Shown: positions 36,764-44,496 of the stretch, one piece after another
How the letters are laid out: the number at the start of each line of letters is the position of its first letter
How positions within the stretch are numbered: the stretch's first letter is position 1
Assembly: GCA_903862595.1 (NCBI GenBank)
Contig: CAIOYO010000157.1
Span: 1 to 44,496, forward strand
Reading direction: 5' to 3'
DNA: 44,496 nt
DNA from: an uncultured Opitutaceae bacterium
GTDB taxonomy: Bacteria; Verrucomicrobiota; Verrucomicrobiia; Opitutales; Opitutaceae
Notes under the pieces: generated by a model
Database searches by the model: none
What the model saw: the letters and a program-made list of their open reading frames with translations, nothing else
What the model was told of the DNA's origin: nothing
Position numbers and translations under genes: made by a program

Positions 36764-37582
36764 ATGGCTTCGCTCCGCCTTAAATCGTTCTCCCCGCCGG
36801 TCCGCGACGATCGTAGTCCGGTCCGGATCAGCGTCTCCGGGCTCAGCAAGAGCTATGGTGCGCAGGGCGTTTTGCACGATATCTCCCTTGAGGTGAAACC
36901 GGGCGAGATCTTCGTCATCATGGGCCCGAGCGGTTCCGGCAAGAGCGTGTTGATGCGGCACATCGCCGGGCTGGAGCTGCCGTCCGCCGGGACGGTCGCG
37001 ATCAACGGCCAGGATCCGAGCCTGCCGGAAACGCGGGACCGTTTCGCGCTCGCCCTCGTGTTCCAGAGCGGCGCGCTGTTCAACTCGCTCAGCGTCTACG
37101 AGAACCTCGCCCTCTATCCTTTGGAGCACCGTCTCTGCCCAAAGCCGGAGATCCGCGAGCGCGTGATGCGCGCGCTGCGCATCCTCTCGATCGAGAATGC
37201 CGTGCACAAGCTGCCCGCCGAGCTGTCCGGCGGCATGAAGAAGCGCGTCGCCATCGCCCGCGCCCTCGTCATGGAGCCGCAGGTCATTCTCTACGACGAA
37301 CCGACCAGCGAGCTCGACCCGGTGATGGCCGCCACCATCGCGGAGATCATCGCGACGCTGAAGGAGCAGTTCAGCGTGACGTCGGTCGTGGTCTCGCATG
37401 ACCGCGACTTGGCCTTTGCCATCGCCGACCGGATCGCCGTGCTGCACCAAGGCCGGCTGATCGCCGTCCAGACGCCGGCGGAGCTGCGCGAGAACCGCGA
37501 TCCAATCATCCGCGAATTCCTCCAACCGGCGATCAATCTCCAGGAACCCCGTTTCAAGAAACTCGAAGCCAACCATGACTAA
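36764..37582 (+). CDS. mlaF: MlaF-like ATPase of MCE-type ABC transporter
   Basis: A 272-residue ABC ATPase. Walker A is GPSGSGKSVLMRHIAG (about 54-69), the signature is LSGGMKKRVAIARAL, in which the MK is typical of Mla/YrbF-type ATPases, and Walker B is LYDEPTSELDP. The gene lies between mlaE and mlaD and overlaps mlaD by eight bases, so all three are translated from one message. The first 20 residues before RISVSGLSKSYG are a short extra N-terminus. Confidence 0.93.
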   Translation: MASLRLKSFSPPVRDDRSPVRISVSGLSKSYGAQGVLHDISLEVKPGEIFVIMGPSGSGKSVLMRHIAGLELPSAGTVAINGQDPSLPETRDRFALALVFQSGALFNSLSVYENLALYPLEHRLCPKPEIRERVMRALRILSIENAVHKLPAELSGGMKKRVAIARALVMEPQVILYDEPTSELDPVMAATIAEIIATLKEQFSVTSVVVSHDRDLAFAIADRIAVLHQGRLIAVQTPAELRENRDPIIREFLQPAINLQEPRFKKLEANHD

Positions 37583-38564
37583 CGCGCAAATGTCGGCCCG
37601 CGTGGGCCTGTTCTTCCTACTCGGAGTCGCCCTCATCTGGGTCACGTTCGAGGCGCTCAGCTCCGGCAAGGTCCGTCGCGACCGGGGCTACCGGCTCATC
37701 GCCCACTTCTCCAACGTCAAGGAACTGAAGGGCGGCGACGAGGTCCGCATGGCCGGCGTCAAGGTCGGCTCAGTGGCCGAGACGCGCCTCGCCAACCGCC
37801 GCGCCGAGGTGGTCCTGCTCATCAATTCCGACGTGAAGGTCGCGCGCGACGCCGTCGCCACGATCGGCATGGCCGGTCTGCTCGGCGCGAACTACGTGTC
37901 GCTCGATCTTGGTACGGAGGCGGCGGGAACGCTGCAGCCCGAGAACCAAATCGTCACCGCTGATACCCCCGACCTCAACGCGGTCATCTCCCAGCTCGGC
38001 GAGGTCAGCCGCAAGATCGATACGGCCCTTTCCCAATTCACCGGGGCCATGGGCTCCGCGGGTGGTTCCGGTCTGCTCGGGAAGATCGACCGATTGGTCG
38101 ACGAGAACAGTGTGCGGATCGGTCAGATCACCACGGATCTCGGCGCGATCTCCAGCAAGGTGAACTCTGGCCAGGGCACCCTCGGGCGCTTGGTCAACGA
38201 TCCGGCCGCCTACGACTCGTTGGTCGCCGCCCTCGGTGAGATCCGCGGCGCCGCCGCCGAGGCCAAGACTTTCATCGCGAGTTCCCAGGCGATCGTCGAT
38301 GAGGTGAAGAGCGGTCGCGGCACGCTGGGTTCCCTGGTCTTCGACCAGCAGACGGGCGAGGACATCCGCGTCGTGGCCCGCAATCTGCGCTCGGTGTCCG
38401 ACCGCCTCAGCAAGGGCGAGGGCACGCTCGGGCGCCTGTTGACGGACGATACGCTCTACCGTGACGCGCAGGGGGTGATGCGGAAGGTCGACCGGGCCGT
38501 CGATGGCCTCACCGACCAAGGCCCGATCACCGCCGTGGGCGTCGCCGCAAACGCGCTGTTCTGA
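37575..38564 (+). CDS. mlaD: MlaD-like MCE domain protein with three C-terminal repeats
   Basis: A 329-residue periplasmic protein with an N-terminal membrane helix (VGLFFLLGVALIWVTFEAL, 10-28) and an MCE domain (about 38-118) with GDEVRMAGVKVGSV and MAGLLGANYVSLDLG. After a linker there are three related elements, QGTLGRLVNDP (200-210), RGTLGSLVFDQ (248-258) and EGTLGRLLTDD (282-292), each preceded by an amphipathic helix. Such helices in MCE proteins pack into tubes or tunnels that carry lipid. Compared with E. coli MlaD (about 180 residues) it is much longer. No mlaC or mlaB homologue is present. Confidence 0.92.
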   Translation: MTNAQMSARVGLFFLLGVALIWVTFEALSSGKVRRDRGYRLIAHFSNVKELKGGDEVRMAGVKVGSVAETRLANRRAEVVLLINSDVKVARDAVATIGMAGLLGANYVSLDLGTEAAGTLQPENQIVTADTPDLNAVISQLGEVSRKIDTALSQFTGAMGSAGGSGLLGKIDRLVDENSVRIGQITTDLGAISSKVNSGQGTLGRLVNDPAAYDSLVAALGEIRGAAAEAKTFIASSQAIVDEVKSGRGTLGSLVFDQQTGEDIRVVARNLRSVSDRLSKGEGTLGRLLTDDTLYRDAQGVMRKVDRAVDGLTDQGPITAVGVAANALF

Positions 38565-38604: not shown

Positions 38605-38991
38605 TCAGTTCGCCGGCTTGACCTCTTCCAGCCACCAGCCGTCCGGCTTGCGCACGAGCAGGCCGGTGATGGCTTGATCCTTCTGCGCCGCCGCCAAGGT
38701 CGGGGCGTCGACCTTCAGGAGCATGGTCATGGCGCGCATGACGCCGGGGATCTCCTCGTGCTTCACGATGAGCGCACTGCGGTCGGCCCGGATGTCGAGC
38801 ACCACGCCCTTCAGCGGGTGCCGAGCCGGTGCCTTGGCGGGGGCGGAACCTGCTGCAGGAGGCGTGGCATCACTCGCTGCGGACGCGGAGACGGGGCCGG
38901 AGGCGAGCGCCAGCAGAGCGGCGAGCGCGACGGCGGCCGGAAGCTTACAGCTGACAGCATGGAAGTCGGAGCGTTGGAACAGCGGTTTCAT
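38605..38991 (-). CDS. Exported CusF-like copper-binding domain protein
   Basis: A 128-residue protein: signal peptide (KLPAAVALAALLALASGPVSA, about 16-36), an Ala/Pro spacer and one small beta domain (about 59-125). The domain contains GVVLDIRADRSALIVKHEE and IPGVMRAMTM with His78, Met85, Met88 and Met90, the same sort of spacing as the Cu(I) ligands in CusF (His, Trp, Met-x-Met). The Trp position is not kept. It closely resembles the N-terminal domain of the SCO1-like protein encoded next to it. Its likely role is to carry copper in the periplasm. Start chosen at 38991, directly before the signal peptide. Confidence 0.7.
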   Translation of the reverse strand: MKPLFQRSDFHAVSCKLPAAVALAALLALASGPVSASAASDATPPAAGSAPAKAPARHPLKGVVLDIRADRSALIVKHEEIPGVMRAMTMLLKVDAPTLAAAQKDQAITGLLVRKPDGWWLEEVKPAN

Positions 38992-39154
38992 GGGAGAGGA
39001 TTCGAGGTGATCGGGGGAAGTTCGGGGAAAAGGGTGGGCGCGGCGGGGAGGCACGTGGGCGAACTCGGATCTGAGCGAGCGAAGATGGAACGGTGGGAAG
39101 GAGGATTGCCGGGGACTGCGAACGACGGGCGGCGACAGTAGCAGCCAGGGCAGT

Positions 39155-40081
39155 TTATGACCGCTTGAGGCGCGCCGCCACATCGGCAGGCGCCCACTGC
39201 GAGCCGTCGATCCGGTGCACGATCCGGCCATCGCGGTCGATCACGAGGGTGGCGAGCGTGTGCTTGAAGAGGTTTTCGCCCGGCTCCACGAGCACCCCGA
39301 ACTGCAGCAGCAGGTCGCGGATCGCGGTCTCCGGACCCGTGAGGAACGAGAAGTTCTTCGAGTCGATGCCGTAGCCCGCCGCATACGAGCGCAGGATCGC
39401 GGGGGTGTCGTGCGTGGGGTCGAGCGTGACCGACACGAGTTCGACGTCGGGAATCGACTGCTCCCGCACCATGCGCTGGAGCTGCGCCATCTTTGTCGTC
39501 GCCGCCGGGCACATCGTGGCGATGGGGCAACGGGTGAAGATGAAGTTCAGGACCACGCGGCGCCCGCGGAAGCGTTCGAATGAAACGAGTTCACCCTCCT
39601 GGTTGAAGAGGGTGAAGCGGGGCGCGTTTTCTCCGACTTCACGGTGCACGGCCCGACCGCGGATCTGGGTCTCCTGGCGCAGCTCCGCCGCCGCCGCCGC
39701 GATCACACGCTCCTTGTCGGCATCGATGATGCGGATCCGATCCAGCTGCAGATCACCCGGCGCGGGCTGAATCATCCGGCCAGTGATGCGCTGGCCTTCC
39801 TTGAACAGGCTGAAGTCCGCCGCTCCGATCCCGAACTCCATCGTCATCTCCGGCATATACCCGGGGATCTCCTCATGATGCACGAGCAGCGTGCGACGCT
39901 CGGGGGAAAGTCCGACGATCTCACCTTTCAGGTCGTGTTCCTCGAACGCGAGCGGGTCCTTGGGCTTTTCCGCCGTCGCGGTGGGTGCAGCCGACCGGCT
40001 GCAGCCGGTGAGCGATGCAGTCAGGGCGAGGGCCGCGGCCAAGGTAGCAACGGTGGAGGTAAAGATGCGGAGACGGGTCAT
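39155..40081 (-). CDS. SCO1/SenC-like lipoprotein with N-terminal CusF-like domain
   Basis: A 308-residue protein. The lipobox is SLTGC with Cys27. Residues 50-120 form a CusF-like domain with HHEEIPGYMPEMTM (His68/69, Met76, Met79, Met81). Residues 148-305 form the SCO thioredoxin-like domain: APRFTLFNQEGELVSFERFRG (part), NFIFTRCPIATMCP and KHTLATLVIDRDGRIVH. The copper Cys pair is Cys185 and Cys191, CX5C instead of the common CX3C; the conserved His is His274. SCO proteins deliver copper to the CuA centre of cytochrome oxidase, so this protein probably receives copper on its first domain and passes it to the second. The start at 40081 gives the lipobox at a normal distance. Confidence 0.88.
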   Translation of the reverse strand: MTRLRIFTSTVATLAAALALTASLTGCSRSAAPTATAEKPKDPLAFEEHDLKGEIVGLSPERRTLLVHHEEIPGYMPEMTMEFGIGAADFSLFKEGQRITGRMIQPAPGDLQLDRIRIIDADKERVIAAAAAELRQETQIRGRAVHREVGENAPRFTLFNQEGELVSFERFRGRRVVLNFIFTRCPIATMCPAATTKMAQLQRMVREQSIPDVELVSVTLDPTHDTPAILRSYAAGYGIDSKNFSFLTGPETAIRDLLLQFGVLVEPGENLFKHTLATLVIDRDGRIVHRIDGSQWAPADVAARLKRS

Positions 40082-40176
40082 GACGTTGAACGGGAATTTC
40101 GGAGGCTTCAGGACTTGCTGGCTTCGAGAGGTGCCGGAATGGACGGTTTGATCGGCGCGCGTGGGTCGATCCAGGT

Positions 40177-41544
40177 TCAGGCTTTCGGCGCCGGGGTCGG
40201 TGGACACAGCTCCCGAGTGGTTGGGGCGGTGGAGCGGGGCAGGGCCGGGAGTAATCCGGCGGCTGGGCTCAACTGGGTTGGATCCCACTCGCGCACGCGC
40301 ACATGCGTCTCAGCGGGGTCTCCAGGCCCAACCTCGGTCCACGCCAACACCACGGTCCCCGAGGACCGCACCGCCGCCCGCGGGAAACCGCCGGCTCGCG
40401 CGGCCGAGACGTCGGCGAGCAACTCGGCGGCCGAAAGGCTCCCATCCCGGAAAATCCGCCGCGCGTACAGGCCGGTGGCCTGCCCTTCACGCTTCGATTC
40501 CAGCCAGAGGACGACCGATGTTCTGTCCGCGAGGGTGACGACCTCCACGCGTCCCAAGGGTTGGCCAAGGTCGATGGGCAGCGGTGCCCCGAAGGTGGCA
40601 CCGCCGTCGTGCGAAAGCTTTGCCTGCACCTTGGCTTGCCCGTTCGCGAGGGTGAACCAGGCCACGCACACCGTGTGGCCCTGCGCATCTCCGGCGGGTC
40701 CGTTGACGGGACACGCCGCGATCTGCCAGCCGTCCTCATGCACGGGTTGCGGTGCGCTCCACGTCTCGTTCCCAAAGCGGGTACAGCAGTGATCCCGGAT
40801 CTCCAGCGGCGTGCGTCCGCGGTAGAAGGCCAAAGTCTCGTCGCCGGGGAGGGCGACCAAGGAGGTCTGGCAGCAACTACACACGTCCGGGTCCACCACC
40901 CACTCCCGGACCGTGCTTCCGTCCGCGGCGAGGAGTCGTGACTTGAGTTGCATGGAGGCAGGTGTTGCGTCCCCCGGCTTCCACGTCGGTCGCGGACTCC
41001 GCGGAGCCCCGGCGGGGCGCGGTGGCTGGAGACTTTCGAGCCAGATCGCGAGGACGCGCCCCGAGGACATCGGCGCAAGGCTGACGAATTCATGACCCAG
41101 CGGCGAAGGCTGGGACCACGTCCGCCCGTCATCCACCGATCGCGCGACCCACCCATCGTAGCCCGTGCCGACCGACGCGTCGCGCCGCTCAAACCACTGC
41201 GCCCAGAGGGTGCCGTCGGTGCCGCGAATCAACGAGGGGAAATCCGCCCAGTTCTCCATCAGTCGTGGGGAGACCACGATCGCCCGCGGAGAGCTCCAAG
41301 TCTGGGCCGAGGGTTCCAGCAGCGAGAGCCAGACGGCGCGAGAGTCGGCCCGGTCTGCGGGTCCACACCAGGTCAAGTGAAGGCGTCCGTCGCGATCCGC
41401 GTGGAGATTGGCCTCCCCCGAGTCCGCGCCGGCCGGTGACACGAGCTCGCGCAGGTTCCCGGCTGCCTGAAGCCCTGGGATCACGGTTCCCATCAGGAGC
41501 GCGAGGCCCAAGGCGAAGCGGATGAGCGGGAAGGTCATGGTCAT
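40177..41544 (-). CDS. Exported Cys-rich BNR/sialidase-like beta-propeller protein
   Basis: A 455-residue protein with a signal peptide (IRFALGLALLMGTVIPGLQA, about 8-27). Asp-box motifs SVDDGRTW (136-143) and SHDGGATF (311-318) show a sialidase-type beta-propeller. It lacks an obvious sialidase active site; instead it has a Cys cluster: Cys222, 224 and 225 in DPDVCSCCQT, Cys253 and 254 in RDHCC, Cys278 in CPVNGP, with Cys60 and Cys293 further away. Clustered cysteines inside a propeller suggest metal binding. It lies between a TonB-dependent receptor and a SCO1-like gene on the same strand. The annotation exo-alpha-sialidase would probably be misleading. Start at 41544; the ATG two codons on (41538) is also possible. 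Confidence 0.75.
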   Translation of the reverse strand: MTMTFPLIRFALGLALLMGTVIPGLQAAGNLRELVSPAGADSGEANLHADRDGRLHLTWCGPADRADSRAVWLSLLEPSAQTWSSPRAIVVSPRLMENWADFPSLIRGTDGTLWAQWFERRDASVGTGYDGWVARSVDDGRTWSQPSPLGHEFVSLAPMSSGRVLAIWLESLQPPRPAGAPRSPRPTWKPGDATPASMQLKSRLLAADGSTVREWVVDPDVCSCCQTSLVALPGDETLAFYRGRTPLEIRDHCCTRFGNETWSAPQPVHEDGWQIAACPVNGPAGDAQGHTVCVAWFTLANGQAKVQAKLSHDGGATFGAPLPIDLGQPLGRVEVVTLADRTSVVLWLESKREGQATGLYARRIFRDGSLSAAELLADVSAARAGGFPRAAVRSSGTVVLAWTEVGPGDPAETHVRVREWDPTQLSPAAGLLPALPRSTAPTTRELCPPTPAPKA

Positions 41545-41920
41545 GCCCCCGCCATGCCCCTGCGCGGCGGAGTAGGGAAATCCTACGCGGCCGCGGTTTG
41601 CCTGCAAGTGGGCGGCTGCGGATCCGGTTCGCGCGGGTACCGCCCCCTCCCGACGCATCGCTCGCTCCGCCGCCAGCGTGGCCGTCCGCAGCCGCATCCG
41701 CGTCGGGTCGGTGGTTAGTCGCGGTCGGCGGGCGGACCGATCGACCGCTCGGCTGTGGCGGGCCGCGCCGCAGGTCTTGTTCCGGCATGAGCGGGGTGAG
41801 CGGGATCGGTGCATCGGGGTGGAGGGTGGGGGCGGGGGCGGCTTTTGAGTGCGGGGAGCCGTCGGGACGGCGGCTGGACCGGAGCGAGGTGGCGTAAGCC
41901 GCGCGGAGGCGCGAGTGGCT
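41545..41920. other. 376-base gap between the receptor and propeller genes
   Basis: I see no supported gene here. Frames on the minus strand stay open upstream of the propeller start, but they are Arg/Pro/Ala-rich with no signal peptide or domain, as expected of GC-rich non-coding DNA. The region is large enough for a separate promoter for the propeller, SCO and CusF-like genes. No hairpin with a T-run was found. Confidence 0.5.
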
Positions 41921-44137
41921 TCAGAACTCCACGCGGGTGCTCCACTCGACACTGCGTGGATCGGCGAGGCGGCGCATCGTTGTGCCGGCCACCGGCTCGT
42001 ACTCCTCGTCGAGCAGGTTGCGGCCGCGGAGCGCGACGTGCCAGCGTCCCCAGGTCTGACTCACCGAGAGATCGAGCGTGGTGTAGCCGTCGGCGACGAC
42101 GCTGTTGAGGTTGTTGGCGAAGCGATCGCCGACGTAGCGCGGGCCGCCGCTGATCACGAGTCCGCCGGGGAAGCGTCGCGACACGAAGACGTTGGCAACC
42201 CACTCCGGCACGTTCGGCGGTCGCTTCCCGGAGCGGGAAATGATGCCGCTGCCGAGCGCCTCGTTGAAGTCCACGAAGGCCGCGTCCGTGAACGCCGCAT
42301 TAGCCTCGATCCGCCAGCCGTCGCTGGGGGTGAGCGCGACCGCCGCCTCGATGCCCTGCGAGGTTTGCGCCCCGATCTGCTGGCTGATGCGTTGACCCGT
42401 GGCGGGGTCCAACGTGGAGCTGAGAAGGTCCGTCTTCTCGATGTCGAAGAGCGCGAGCGTGAAATCGGCGCGTCCGCGGAGCAGGGACCCCTTCACCCCG
42501 GCCTCCCACTGTCGGCCCCCCTGGAGCGAGAAATTGGCCTGGGCGGCGCCGAAGCTGACCAGCTGGGTGACCGGCTCGGCGGCGGTGCTGTAGGCCGCGT
42601 ACGCGTTGAGCGCCGGCGACACCTCGTAAACCATGCCGGCGCGTCCGGTCCACGGGCGGTACCGCTTGTGGAACGTCGAGAACGCGGTCGCGGGCGCGAC
42701 GGTTGGATTGGCGAGTGTGTCGCGTTGGACATGGATCGCATCGCTGCGCAGGCCGGTGACGAGGCGCAGCTTCGGAGCGAGATCGAGGGTGTTTTCGACG
42801 AAGGCGGCGCCGGTCTCCAGGCGGATGCGGGCGGTTTTCTGGAAGCGCGCGGCGGGGCCGACGCCGACCTCGGGATTGAGCAGGCTGACGCTCGACAGTG
42901 TGGTGGGCACGCCGCCGGGCGTGCCGCCGCGGATCTGATCATTGCGTTCGACGCTGAATCCGGCGATCCACCGAGTCGGCCGGCCGGCGATTGCGCCGCG
43001 CCAGGCGAGGTCGGTGCGGTTGCCCGCGAGGACATCGTCGCGGTAGATGTGGACGAACGATGAACGCGCGACGAGACGCGTGACCGGATTCCAGGTGTTG
43101 GTTTCGAGGTTGCGCCATTTCAGGAGCTGGGTGGTGAGGTACGTCTCGCTGCGGAGATCGAGGCTCGGCGACAGTTGCAGCTCGGCGCGAAGACGCTGGA
43201 AGCTGTTCTCGGTGTCAGCGTAGTTATCGAGGATGTTGTAGTTAGTGCGCCGGGCCGCCGGATCGATCCGCGCATTGACCATGCGGTCGGTCGCGGCGTT
43301 GAAGGTCCGCACCTCGGGTTGGGCGTTTGCGACGGTCGCGTTGATCACGGAGTCGTAGATCACGGGAGATCCGTAGTAGCTCTCGACGGAGTCGGAGAGC
43401 CACGTCGTGAACCACGTCAGCGTGAGCTGTTCGGACGCCTTCCAGCGGAAAGCGGCGGAGGCGCCGAAGTAGTCCTGATGATTCCGATCCTGGTAGCCAT
43501 CGGTCGTGTTGGAGCTCACGTCGACGCGGTAGGCGAGGGCGGGACCTGCGAGAGGGCCGCCGATCCCGGCGCCGAGCCGGTAGGATCCCCACGGCCCCAC
43601 GCTGGCGGCGACCTCGCGACGGACCCGACCATCCGGGACCTTGGAGACGTAGTTCACGGCTCCCCCGACCGCGCCCTCGCCGAACATGAGGGAGGCGGGC
43701 CCCTTGAGGACCTCGATCCGGTCGAGCAGGAACGCGTCGATCGTGCGGGACGATTGGGAGGCGGTGTTCTGGCGGATGCCATCGCGGAGGACGGTCACAT
43801 TGTTGCCGCCGAAGCCGCGGGTGGAGTAGGTCGGAATCGAGCCGAACTGCGTGCCGCCGGTCATGCCGACCGCCGCCTCCACGGCTTCGACGGCGGTGCG
43901 CAGGCCGCGGGCCTGCATGACCTCCTGGGTGATGACGGATACGCTCGCGGGGACCTCCCGGAGCGTGAGACCCAGTCGTGAGCCGGTGCCGACGGGGGCG
44001 TCGATCGGCAACGAGAACGTCTTTTCCTTTTCGGAAATGACATCGACGCGGTCGAGTTGGACGACGGGCTGCGCGACCGCGGCCATCGTGAACGTAAGAA
44101 AACTGAGCGGGAGAGCGAAACGGGAAGAGGAAAACAT
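41921..44137 (-). CDS. TonB-dependent receptor (siderophore/metal-type)
   Basis: A 738-residue outer-membrane receptor. Signal peptide FALPLSFLTFTMAAVAQ (about 7-23), plug domain from about 50 with REVPASVSVITQEVMQ, then STRGFGGNNVTVLRDGIRQ (part), DRIEVLKGPASLMFGEGA and GGAVNYVSK. The barrel ends in RSVEWSTRVEF with terminal Phe. The plug pattern is that of siderophore- and copper-type receptors such as FhuA/FpvA relatives. The neighbours downstream (propeller, SCO, CusF-like) make copper a plausible cargo, but siderophore-iron is the common alternative for this plug type. The ATG at 44137 is chosen because it places a proper signal peptide at the N-terminus. Confidence 0.93.
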   Translation of the reverse strand: MFSSSRFALPLSFLTFTMAAVAQPVVQLDRVDVISEKEKTFSLPIDAPVGTGSRLGLTLREVPASVSVITQEVMQARGLRTAVEAVEAAVGMTGGTQFGSIPTYSTRGFGGNNVTVLRDGIRQNTASQSSRTIDAFLLDRIEVLKGPASLMFGEGAVGGAVNYVSKVPDGRVRREVAASVGPWGSYRLGAGIGGPLAGPALAYRVDVSSNTTDGYQDRNHQDYFGASAAFRWKASEQLTLTWFTTWLSDSVESYYGSPVIYDSVINATVANAQPEVRTFNAATDRMVNARIDPAARRTNYNILDNYADTENSFQRLRAELQLSPSLDLRSETYLTTQLLKWRNLETNTWNPVTRLVARSSFVHIYRDDVLAGNRTDLAWRGAIAGRPTRWIAGFSVERNDQIRGGTPGGVPTTLSSVSLLNPEVGVGPAARFQKTARIRLETGAAFVENTLDLAPKLRLVTGLRSDAIHVQRDTLANPTVAPATAFSTFHKRYRPWTGRAGMVYEVSPALNAYAAYSTAAEPVTQLVSFGAAQANFSLQGGRQWEAGVKGSLLRGRADFTLALFDIEKTDLLSSTLDPATGQRISQQIGAQTSQGIEAAVALTPSDGWRIEANAAFTDAAFVDFNEALGSGIISRSGKRPPNVPEWVANVFVSRRFPGGLVISGGPRYVGDRFANNLNSVVADGYTTLDLSVSQTWGRWHVALRGRNLLDEEYEPVAGTTMRRLADPRSVEWSTRVEF

Positions 44138-44345
44138 GGAAGGAGTTGTTTTAGGTGGCGGTGGGTCTCGTGCGCGTGGCGGTGCCAGCAGGGTGCGCGT
44201 GCGCGATGCGATGCGGCAGGGCGTGAGGCACGACGGTGGTCCGGCGGCTGCGCTCAATGCCTCCCTGACGTCAATGGTGCCGGCAGGGTGAGTCGCCATG
44301 CGACGCGCGCCCGCGCGGGGCGGGCGGATCGCGTGCAGGCAGCAA

Positions 44346-44378
44346 CGTCCGGAGTCAGGACGCGGTGCGTCCCGGACG
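44346..44378. repeat. Nested hairpin upstream of the receptor
   Basis: GGACGC-GGT-GCGTCC (44358-44372) is a perfect hairpin with a three-base loop, and outside it CGTCCG (44346-44351) pairs with CGGACG (44373-44378). There is no T-run. It lies after the stop of the partial minus-strand gene at the edge and about 210 bases before the receptor start, so it could end the upstream transcript or belong to the receptor leader. Confidence 0.45.
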
Positions 44379-44388
44379 GAGCGCTGGC

Positions 44389-44496
44389 TTAGGCCAGCCG
44401 CGGCGGTGGGGTCGGCGGGGCGCTGCGGCGGGCACCGTCAGCGATCTGGTCCTCGGCGCGCCACGGCGCGACCGGGGGAGCGCTCAGTACGAAGAC
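44389..44496 (-). CDS. C-terminal end of an unidentified gene, cut by the window
   Basis: The minus-strand frame ending in TAA at 44389-44391 is open to the right edge, giving 35 residues: VFVLSAPPVAPWRAEDQIAD, then a Pro-rich end. A Trp followed by a polar stretch and a terminal APPTPPP resembles the tails of small DUF2946-type proteins often found near copper receptor genes, but 35 residues is too little to be sure. It may also be chance open frame. Same strand as the receptor it precedes. Confidence 0.3.
   Translation of the reverse strand, partial: VFVLSAPPVAPWRAEDQIADGARRSAPPTPPPRLA

Follow-up and report, generated by a model that had tools for sequence, protein, structure and literature searches.

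The closest described counterpart of the locus considered here is the cruR-crtA-PepSY operon, known from Bordetella pertussis, whose receptor CrtA (BfrG) imports chelated copper serving heme-copper oxidases (PMC12914433). The locus lies at positions 38605-44137 of contig CAIOYO010000157.1 from an uncultured Opitutaceae bacterium (assembly GCA_903862595.1). It encodes a TonB-dependent receptor, an exported beta-propeller, a lipoprotein that joins a CusF domain to a SCO domain and a stand-alone CusF-like protein, and it is preceded by the end of a small leader gene; judged by its sequence, it is probably an Opitutaceae operon for copper acquisition and delivery that supplies an oxidase. The window is the whole stretch of DNA analysed (44,496 nucleotides) and equals the source contig, which belongs to a 3.34-Mb assembly in 397 contigs that is 94.8% complete. 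Numbers with the prefix L denote mapped loci from other genomes, and G326 is a genome of the same genus.

Described copper systems and the layout of the locus

Several described systems resemble this locus in part. CruR of B. pertussis is a DUF2946 protein with a CxxC motif and a RAPP sequence three residues from its end, 45 residues lying between the two; copper relieves its stalling, and Rho then terminates transcription ahead of the receptor gene (PMC9426467). A few crtA operons include Sco and PCuAC genes, and CrtA orthologs are mostly beta- and gammaproteobacterial (PMC12914433). CutF of Rhodobacter capsulatus, which acts in the opposite sense to CruR and on an oxidase, is likewise an exported leader with a Cys pair and a Pro-rich C-terminus just ahead of a copper gene, but unlike the Opitutaceae leader it has CxxxC and a multicopper oxidase as its target (PMC9973294). 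The RAPP/RGPP arrest peptides are also small exported proteins with an Arg/Pro motif near the C-terminus, and some of them stand upstream of TonB-dependent receptors (PMC12992588). TccA of Caulobacter and PcuB, from a copper-starvation operon of B. japonicum, are TonB receptors that serve, or are predicted to serve, the copper supply of an aa3-type oxidase; the likeness is one of description, and the passages of that paper bearing on them do not mention a propeller (PMC12617631).

With the CrtA operon the Opitutaceae locus shares a leader that combines CxxC with a Pro-rich C-terminus, a long gap and a related receptor (PMC12914433, PMC9426467). It differs in that the receptor belongs to a clade of its own from which the essential His is missing, the leader has P-x-PPPR in place of RAPP and no DUF2946 match, and a propeller, a CusF-like protein and a CusF-SCO protein replace the PepSY gene. 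The words 'CusF', 'sialidase' and 'propeller' are absent from the text of PMC12914433, and 'Verrucomicrob' has no mention in the text of PMC9973294 and PMC9426467. The features of the locus are as follows.

44389..44496, minus strand: leader gene, C-terminal 35 residues and stop, the remainder lying beyond the contig end (alignment to relatives, model A5)
44138..44388, minus strand: 251-nt gap from leader stop to receptor start, a candidate control region (position between genes)
41921..44137, minus strand: TonB-dependent receptor of a CrtA-like sister clade (Plug and barrel profiles, solved-structure match, tree)
40177..41544, minus strand: exported propeller with four invariant Cys (BNR_2 profile, alignment A1, structure model)
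40870..40881, minus strand: CxCC cluster of the propeller (C222, C224, C225), conserved without exception across alignment A1 (18 sequences)
40711..40713, minus strand: propeller C278 in a CPVNGP motif, invariant in the same alignment
39155..40081, minus strand: lipoprotein with an N-terminal CusF domain (39731-39937) and a C-terminal SCO domain (39224-39619) (PF11604, PF02630)
39509..39529, minus strand: C-x5-C motif of the SCO domain (CPIATMC), also present in 12 SCO domains of L166-L222
38605..38991, minus strand: stand-alone CusF-like protein (PF11604 just below cut-off)

The original prediction had given four same-strand genes, and their outer coordinates, 44137 and 38605, are exact to the base; profile scores also agree with the identities that it assigned, namely a TonB receptor, an exported propeller with a Cys cluster, a CusF-SCO lipoprotein and a small CusF. 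All four proteins have N-termini resembling export signals by eye. The leader fragment had been missed, as the window stops at the contig end within this fifth gene (44496-44389, minus strand), which heads the locus in relatives. Downstream, an MlaD gene (37575-38564, plus strand) converges on the locus, with MlaE- and ABC (ATP-binding cassette)-like frames before it (by eye).

Receptor and leader

The receptor scores 87.2 bits with the Plug profile and 142.5 bits with the barrel profile. Its closest solved structure is 9rvq, which is CrtA, at 273 bits over residues 25-737 of 738, with the runner-up at 131 bits. In the reverse comparison CrtA matched the window receptor at 271 bits and the best other receptor of this genome at 42 bits, a comparison that covered 29 of its 33 further Plug sites; a second Plug match of 40 bits lies on the same contig (24267-24593, plus strand). 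A tree built from 33 receptors groups the 18 from Opitutaceae in one clade with 100/100 support and a long stem (1.1), separate both from CrtA with L230 and L062 and from an alphaproteobacterial clade. A direct association of the two families is seen in the Burkholderiales metagenome-assembled genome (MAG) H5_AOB4, where a CrtA relative (597 bits) lies 63 nt ahead of a propeller gene (L062:5436-9242). A Sphingomonas plasmid (L233:197-6079) carries, besides a DUF2946 gene, a pair of TonB receptors of which the second is CrtA-like.

Upstream of the receptor, relatives carry an exported protein of about 130 residues (export signal by eye). The last 36 minus-strand codons of the window read VFVLSAPPVAPWRAEDQIADGARRSAPPTPPPRLA followed by a stop; all 35 residues align, at 80% identity, with the leader C-termini of L166 and L167, and leader model A5 matches the fragment at 21.5 bits (E 1e-8 in a one-sequence search). 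The CxxC motif is present in 30 of 31 unique leaders from 57 mapped loci, the exception being a fragment-like match in L203, and C55, C58, P118, P121, P122 and R123 are invariant in the alignment of 30 leaders. A PP[RKQ] sequence falls within the final 12 residues of all 30, at 59-68 residues from the CxxC; leaders included, 53 of the 1,520 open frames that are 80-250 residues long in these loci have it there. The first labelled gene within 700 nt of the leader (n=29) is the receptor in 26 cases and CusF in three.

The search for leaders gave a match in 77 of 100 genomes of the family, the truncated copy of the window not counting as one, and in 49 of 194 genomes of the phylum. A further 40 leader loci (L309-L348) were chosen by hand, 20 outside the family and 20 inside; CxxC was present in all 40 and PP[RKQ] in 38, and over both sets of leaders the two motifs lie 59-72 residues apart. 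A receptor follows directly in 21 of these (20 by our own model and L323 by Pfam), and in the remainder the next gene encodes CusF, a NosL protein (L327) or a protein that no Pfam family matches. In other Verrucomicrobiota the leader also stands ahead of small Cys-bearing proteins of outer-membrane type, which raises the question of a wider metal control.

The 30 leaders matched no Pfam family, and DUF2946 was absent even among the families with E up to 1, so that a DUF2946 match was rejected; the genome itself has two weak DUF2946 matches, elsewhere and below cut-off. Neither RAPP nor RGPP was found near the C-terminus of any of 70 leaders. A CruR- or CutF-like working, if any, would therefore proceed without DUF2946 membership. 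A Rho signal in the leader-receptor gap was also rejected, as C>G bubbles were like those of other gaps (means 0.33, n=29, vs 0.32, n=41; p = 0.48). RNA folding of the leader-receptor stretches was weakly stronger than elsewhere (mean z -1.2, n=29, vs -0.5, n=45; p = 0.028), in stretches that take in the start of the receptor gene and come from the loci of relatives. Taken by its motifs and position, the leader looks like a copper-sensing switch.

Propeller, CusF and SCO proteins

The CusF-SCO protein matches PF11604 at 37.2 bits and PF02630 at 88.8 bits (cut-off 22.8), both above cut-off, and carries the lipobox LTGC (by eye). The stand-alone protein reaches 25.5-26.6 bits with PF11604, just below the cut-off of 27, and its counterpart in G326 exceeds it at 31.2 bits. 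Both CusF domains of the window contain H-x9-M-x-M, and with it the His, Met and Met ligands of CusF, with Met replacing the Trp of E. coli CusF. This pattern is retained in 10/10 SCO-fused and 31/31 stand-alone CusF domains. It is often gone from CusF domains joined to the propeller, of which 4 out of 14 retain it, and L208, L209, L215, L216 and L220-L222 have a CusF domain behind the propeller without the His/Met ligands.

The usual spacing of SCO cysteines, C-x3-C, is a defining feature of the family. The SCO domain of the window carries two Cys and a His, with the cysteines spaced as C-x5-C, which opens a gap of two residues in the alignment to solved SCO proteins; the same spacing is found in 12/12 SCO domains from L166-L222. 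Genome-wide, the single PF02630 match and both PF11604 matches lie within this locus. A second SCO gene could be absent from the assembly through its incompleteness. SCO is present in 94 of 100 family genomes, many with several copies, and a single SCO therefore typifies this genome and G326 rather than the family. Three PF00115 matches lie on contigs other than the window. One belongs to a caa3-type operon with a CtaG-like gene and a subunit II with CuA-like residues (by eye); the second belongs to a cbb3-type set and the third is an oxidase-like gene (both by eye).

Linkage was assessed in 57 propeller loci, related to one another and drawn from the better part of the family listing. On the same strand and within 3 kb of the propeller, fusions included, CusF occurs in 45 of these, a receptor in 35 and SCO in 12. 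With 111 CusF matches spread over 61 family genomes, a mean of 1.8, the estimated chance of CusF lying near a propeller is about 0.0015 per locus, and the pairing is therefore beyond chance. The order receptor, propeller, CusF-SCO fusion, CusF is not unique to this genome, since L166, L167, L168 and L169 share it (4/57); the exact order was seen within the genus only, and elsewhere in the family it is rearranged, fused or lacks SCO. A reordered version, receptor, CusF-SCO fusion and propeller, occurs in L186, L188 and L191; CusF, SCO and propeller form a single frame in L173 and L174; receptor, propeller and CusF occur without SCO in, for example, L170 and L176-L179; and a propeller-CusF fusion is followed by a receptor of a different family in, for example, L214, L216 and L219. 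L005:640-2862, from the same genome as L174, holds CusF, SCO and propeller in one frame of 741 residues.

The propeller itself matches BNR_2 at 37.1 bits. It shares its fold and an Asp-box type of sequence with sialidase-fold (BNR/Asp-box) proteins and PLL-type lectins, and differs from sialidase-fold proteins in that its family conserves the pattern of four cysteines. The structure model has a mean predicted local distance difference test score (pLDDT) of 81.9 and a predicted template modelling score of 0.82, with residues 271-280 at a mean pLDDT of only 57. It resembles PLL/PHL lectins and sialidases modestly (template modelling score 0.3-0.55 by query length, 9-16% identity), and its likeness to GH33 sialidases is one of fold and of part of the sequence. 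The four-cysteine site perhaps binds copper; a limited literature search, by title and the start of the abstract, returned no copper role for sialidase-like proteins. The nearest named relatives, among the matches listed, are from Verrucomicrobia/Opitutaceae MAGs at 75% and 60% identity, and the family searched is on that ground taken to be Opitutaceae. Among 288 genomes of the phylum 15 gave a propeller match, every one from the family of the window, and among 200 genomes of the family 92 did, including 6 of the 10 same-genus genomes in that listing. A scan of named genomes gave at least 584 confirmed propeller stretches, in Opitutaceae, Acidobacteria, Gemmatimonadota, Rhodobacterales and others.

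Competing explanations and a proposed working

Copper acquisition and delivery is favoured because the receptor is CrtA-like, the only SCO protein found is accompanied by a CuA oxidase, CusF, SCO and propeller occur as fusions and the leader is CruR-like. These points support the copper uptake and hand-over of the original prediction well, though indirectly, and uphold that prediction in part; the replacement of the essential His of CrtA by Arg speaks against it. Several further observations weigh against this reading. The intergenic gaps (376 bp from receptor to propeller, 95 bp from propeller to CusF-SCO and 163 bp from CusF-SCO to CusF) are no proof of a single transcript, and the receptors that follow leaders in the 40 additional loci are mostly unlike CrtA. 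Outside the family, where neighbour counts rest on 80 of the 584 confirmed stretches, 24 of 80 loci from other phyla and from Rhodobacterales have a TlpA-like gene beside the propeller. Among 66 neighbouring proteins scanned in other phyla, by a crude choice of genes, five were AhpC-TSA/redoxin and eight PD40 propellers, the rest being mostly unrelated, and a propeller-copper link across all phyla is rejected on these neighbours.

The first alternative is copper defence, in which the propeller, CusF and SCO-like protein would buffer or detoxify periplasmic copper and the receptor, exporting nothing, would recover chelated copper or a chelator. Here the Rhodobacterales plasmids are the main witness: 62 plasmid records contain a propeller match, and in 6/6 contexts examined a same-strand multicopper oxidase gene lies upstream of the propeller at a distance of no more than 8 kb. 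Other copper genes are also present in three of the six, the contexts variously including CusA, TolC, P-type ATPase or mercury genes, and in L063 a metal P-type ATPase adjoins the propeller. These contexts, which also tell against acquisition, look like copper resistance rather than uptake. For the Opitutaceae locus defence is nevertheless unlikely: the 57 family maps show an inward-type receptor together with the CusF-SCO protein, the nearest solved relative of the receptor is a copper importer, and CruR-type leaders shut the receptor off when copper is present.

A different cargo is quite unlikely as well, although much of what speaks for it bears on acquisition too. The receptor would then take up another metal or metallophore, such as nickel or iron, and the copper-like proteins would be general handlers of soft metals or thiols. 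The top NCBIfam model for the receptor is a siderophore receptor (209 bits, below the cut-off of 223.5). In a comparison of site residues over 18 Opitutaceae and 12 proteobacterial rows, from which six duplicate loci had been removed beforehand, the His358 column of CrtA is Arg in 18/18 Opitutaceae and His in 12/12 proteobacterial receptors; Y130 is replaced by T (S in one) and Q356 by I in the 18, W265 by Y or F, and Glu337 and Arg395 are retained in all 18. The absence of the essential His358 rules out a CrtA proper, and on these residues and the tree the receptor is kin of CrtA and not CrtA itself. The alphaproteobacterial sister receptors adjoin PepSY genes and also NikR (L226), FecCD-type ABC genes of iron type (L227) and the nickel/cobalt transport genes NixA/CobW (L229); by these neighbours, the sister clade is one that handles metals besides copper, and kinship alone therefore does not give copper as the cargo. 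DUF4198, a family connected with nickel/cobalt uptake, is fused to the propeller in L168:3374-5575 (minus strand) and L169:7029-9245 (plus strand), with PF10670 at 100.7 and 96.8 bits. Against another cargo, CusF and SCO are copper families and CusF stands beside most of the propellers. A thiol-redox module, in which a SCO/TlpA-like protein would keep the propeller cysteines reduced and the propeller would be an enzyme or bind some other ligand, could draw on the TlpA-like neighbours, the lectin and sialidase fold matches and the W, D, Y, R and E residues that are as invariant as the cysteines in alignment A1, but is very improbable for Opitutaceae, where the partner protein has a CusF domain with its ligands intact.

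Under copper acquisition and delivery, the working of the locus may be proposed as follows, each step of metal binding or transfer, the direction of transport and the action of the leader being what we infer. The leader would be translated and exported, its CxxC sensing copper and its C-terminal P-x-PPPR slowing the ribosome, and the receptor and downstream genes would in consequence be made under copper shortage. The receptor would import a copper ion in chelated form through the outer membrane, and the propeller would accept periplasmic copper, perhaps at its four-cysteine site. The CusF domains, with His and Met-x-Met, would ferry Cu(I) to the SCO domain, which with C-x5-C and His would load the CuA site of the caa3-type oxidase. 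The broader proposal, that leaders with CxxC and P-x-PPPR are copper-sensing arrest peptides throughout Verrucomicrobiota and that the four-Cys propeller is a periplasmic copper carrier from receptor to CusF/SCO, is tentative, and we place it somewhat short of an even chance.

Copper uptake and its delivery to oxidases in Gram-negative bacteria are largely open, CrtA having been described in 2026, and the present locus brings together a receptor, chaperones of two types and a likely sensor in a phylum outside the texts of those studies. Of its parts, the leader class and the propeller most merit further study. The former would escape motif searches for RAPP or RGPP, or for DUF2946, and many proteins annotated as 'sialidase family' gain a testable copper role. 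If the reading is true, an uninterrupted copper route from the outer membrane to the oxidase would be encoded in a single locus of these Opitutaceae.

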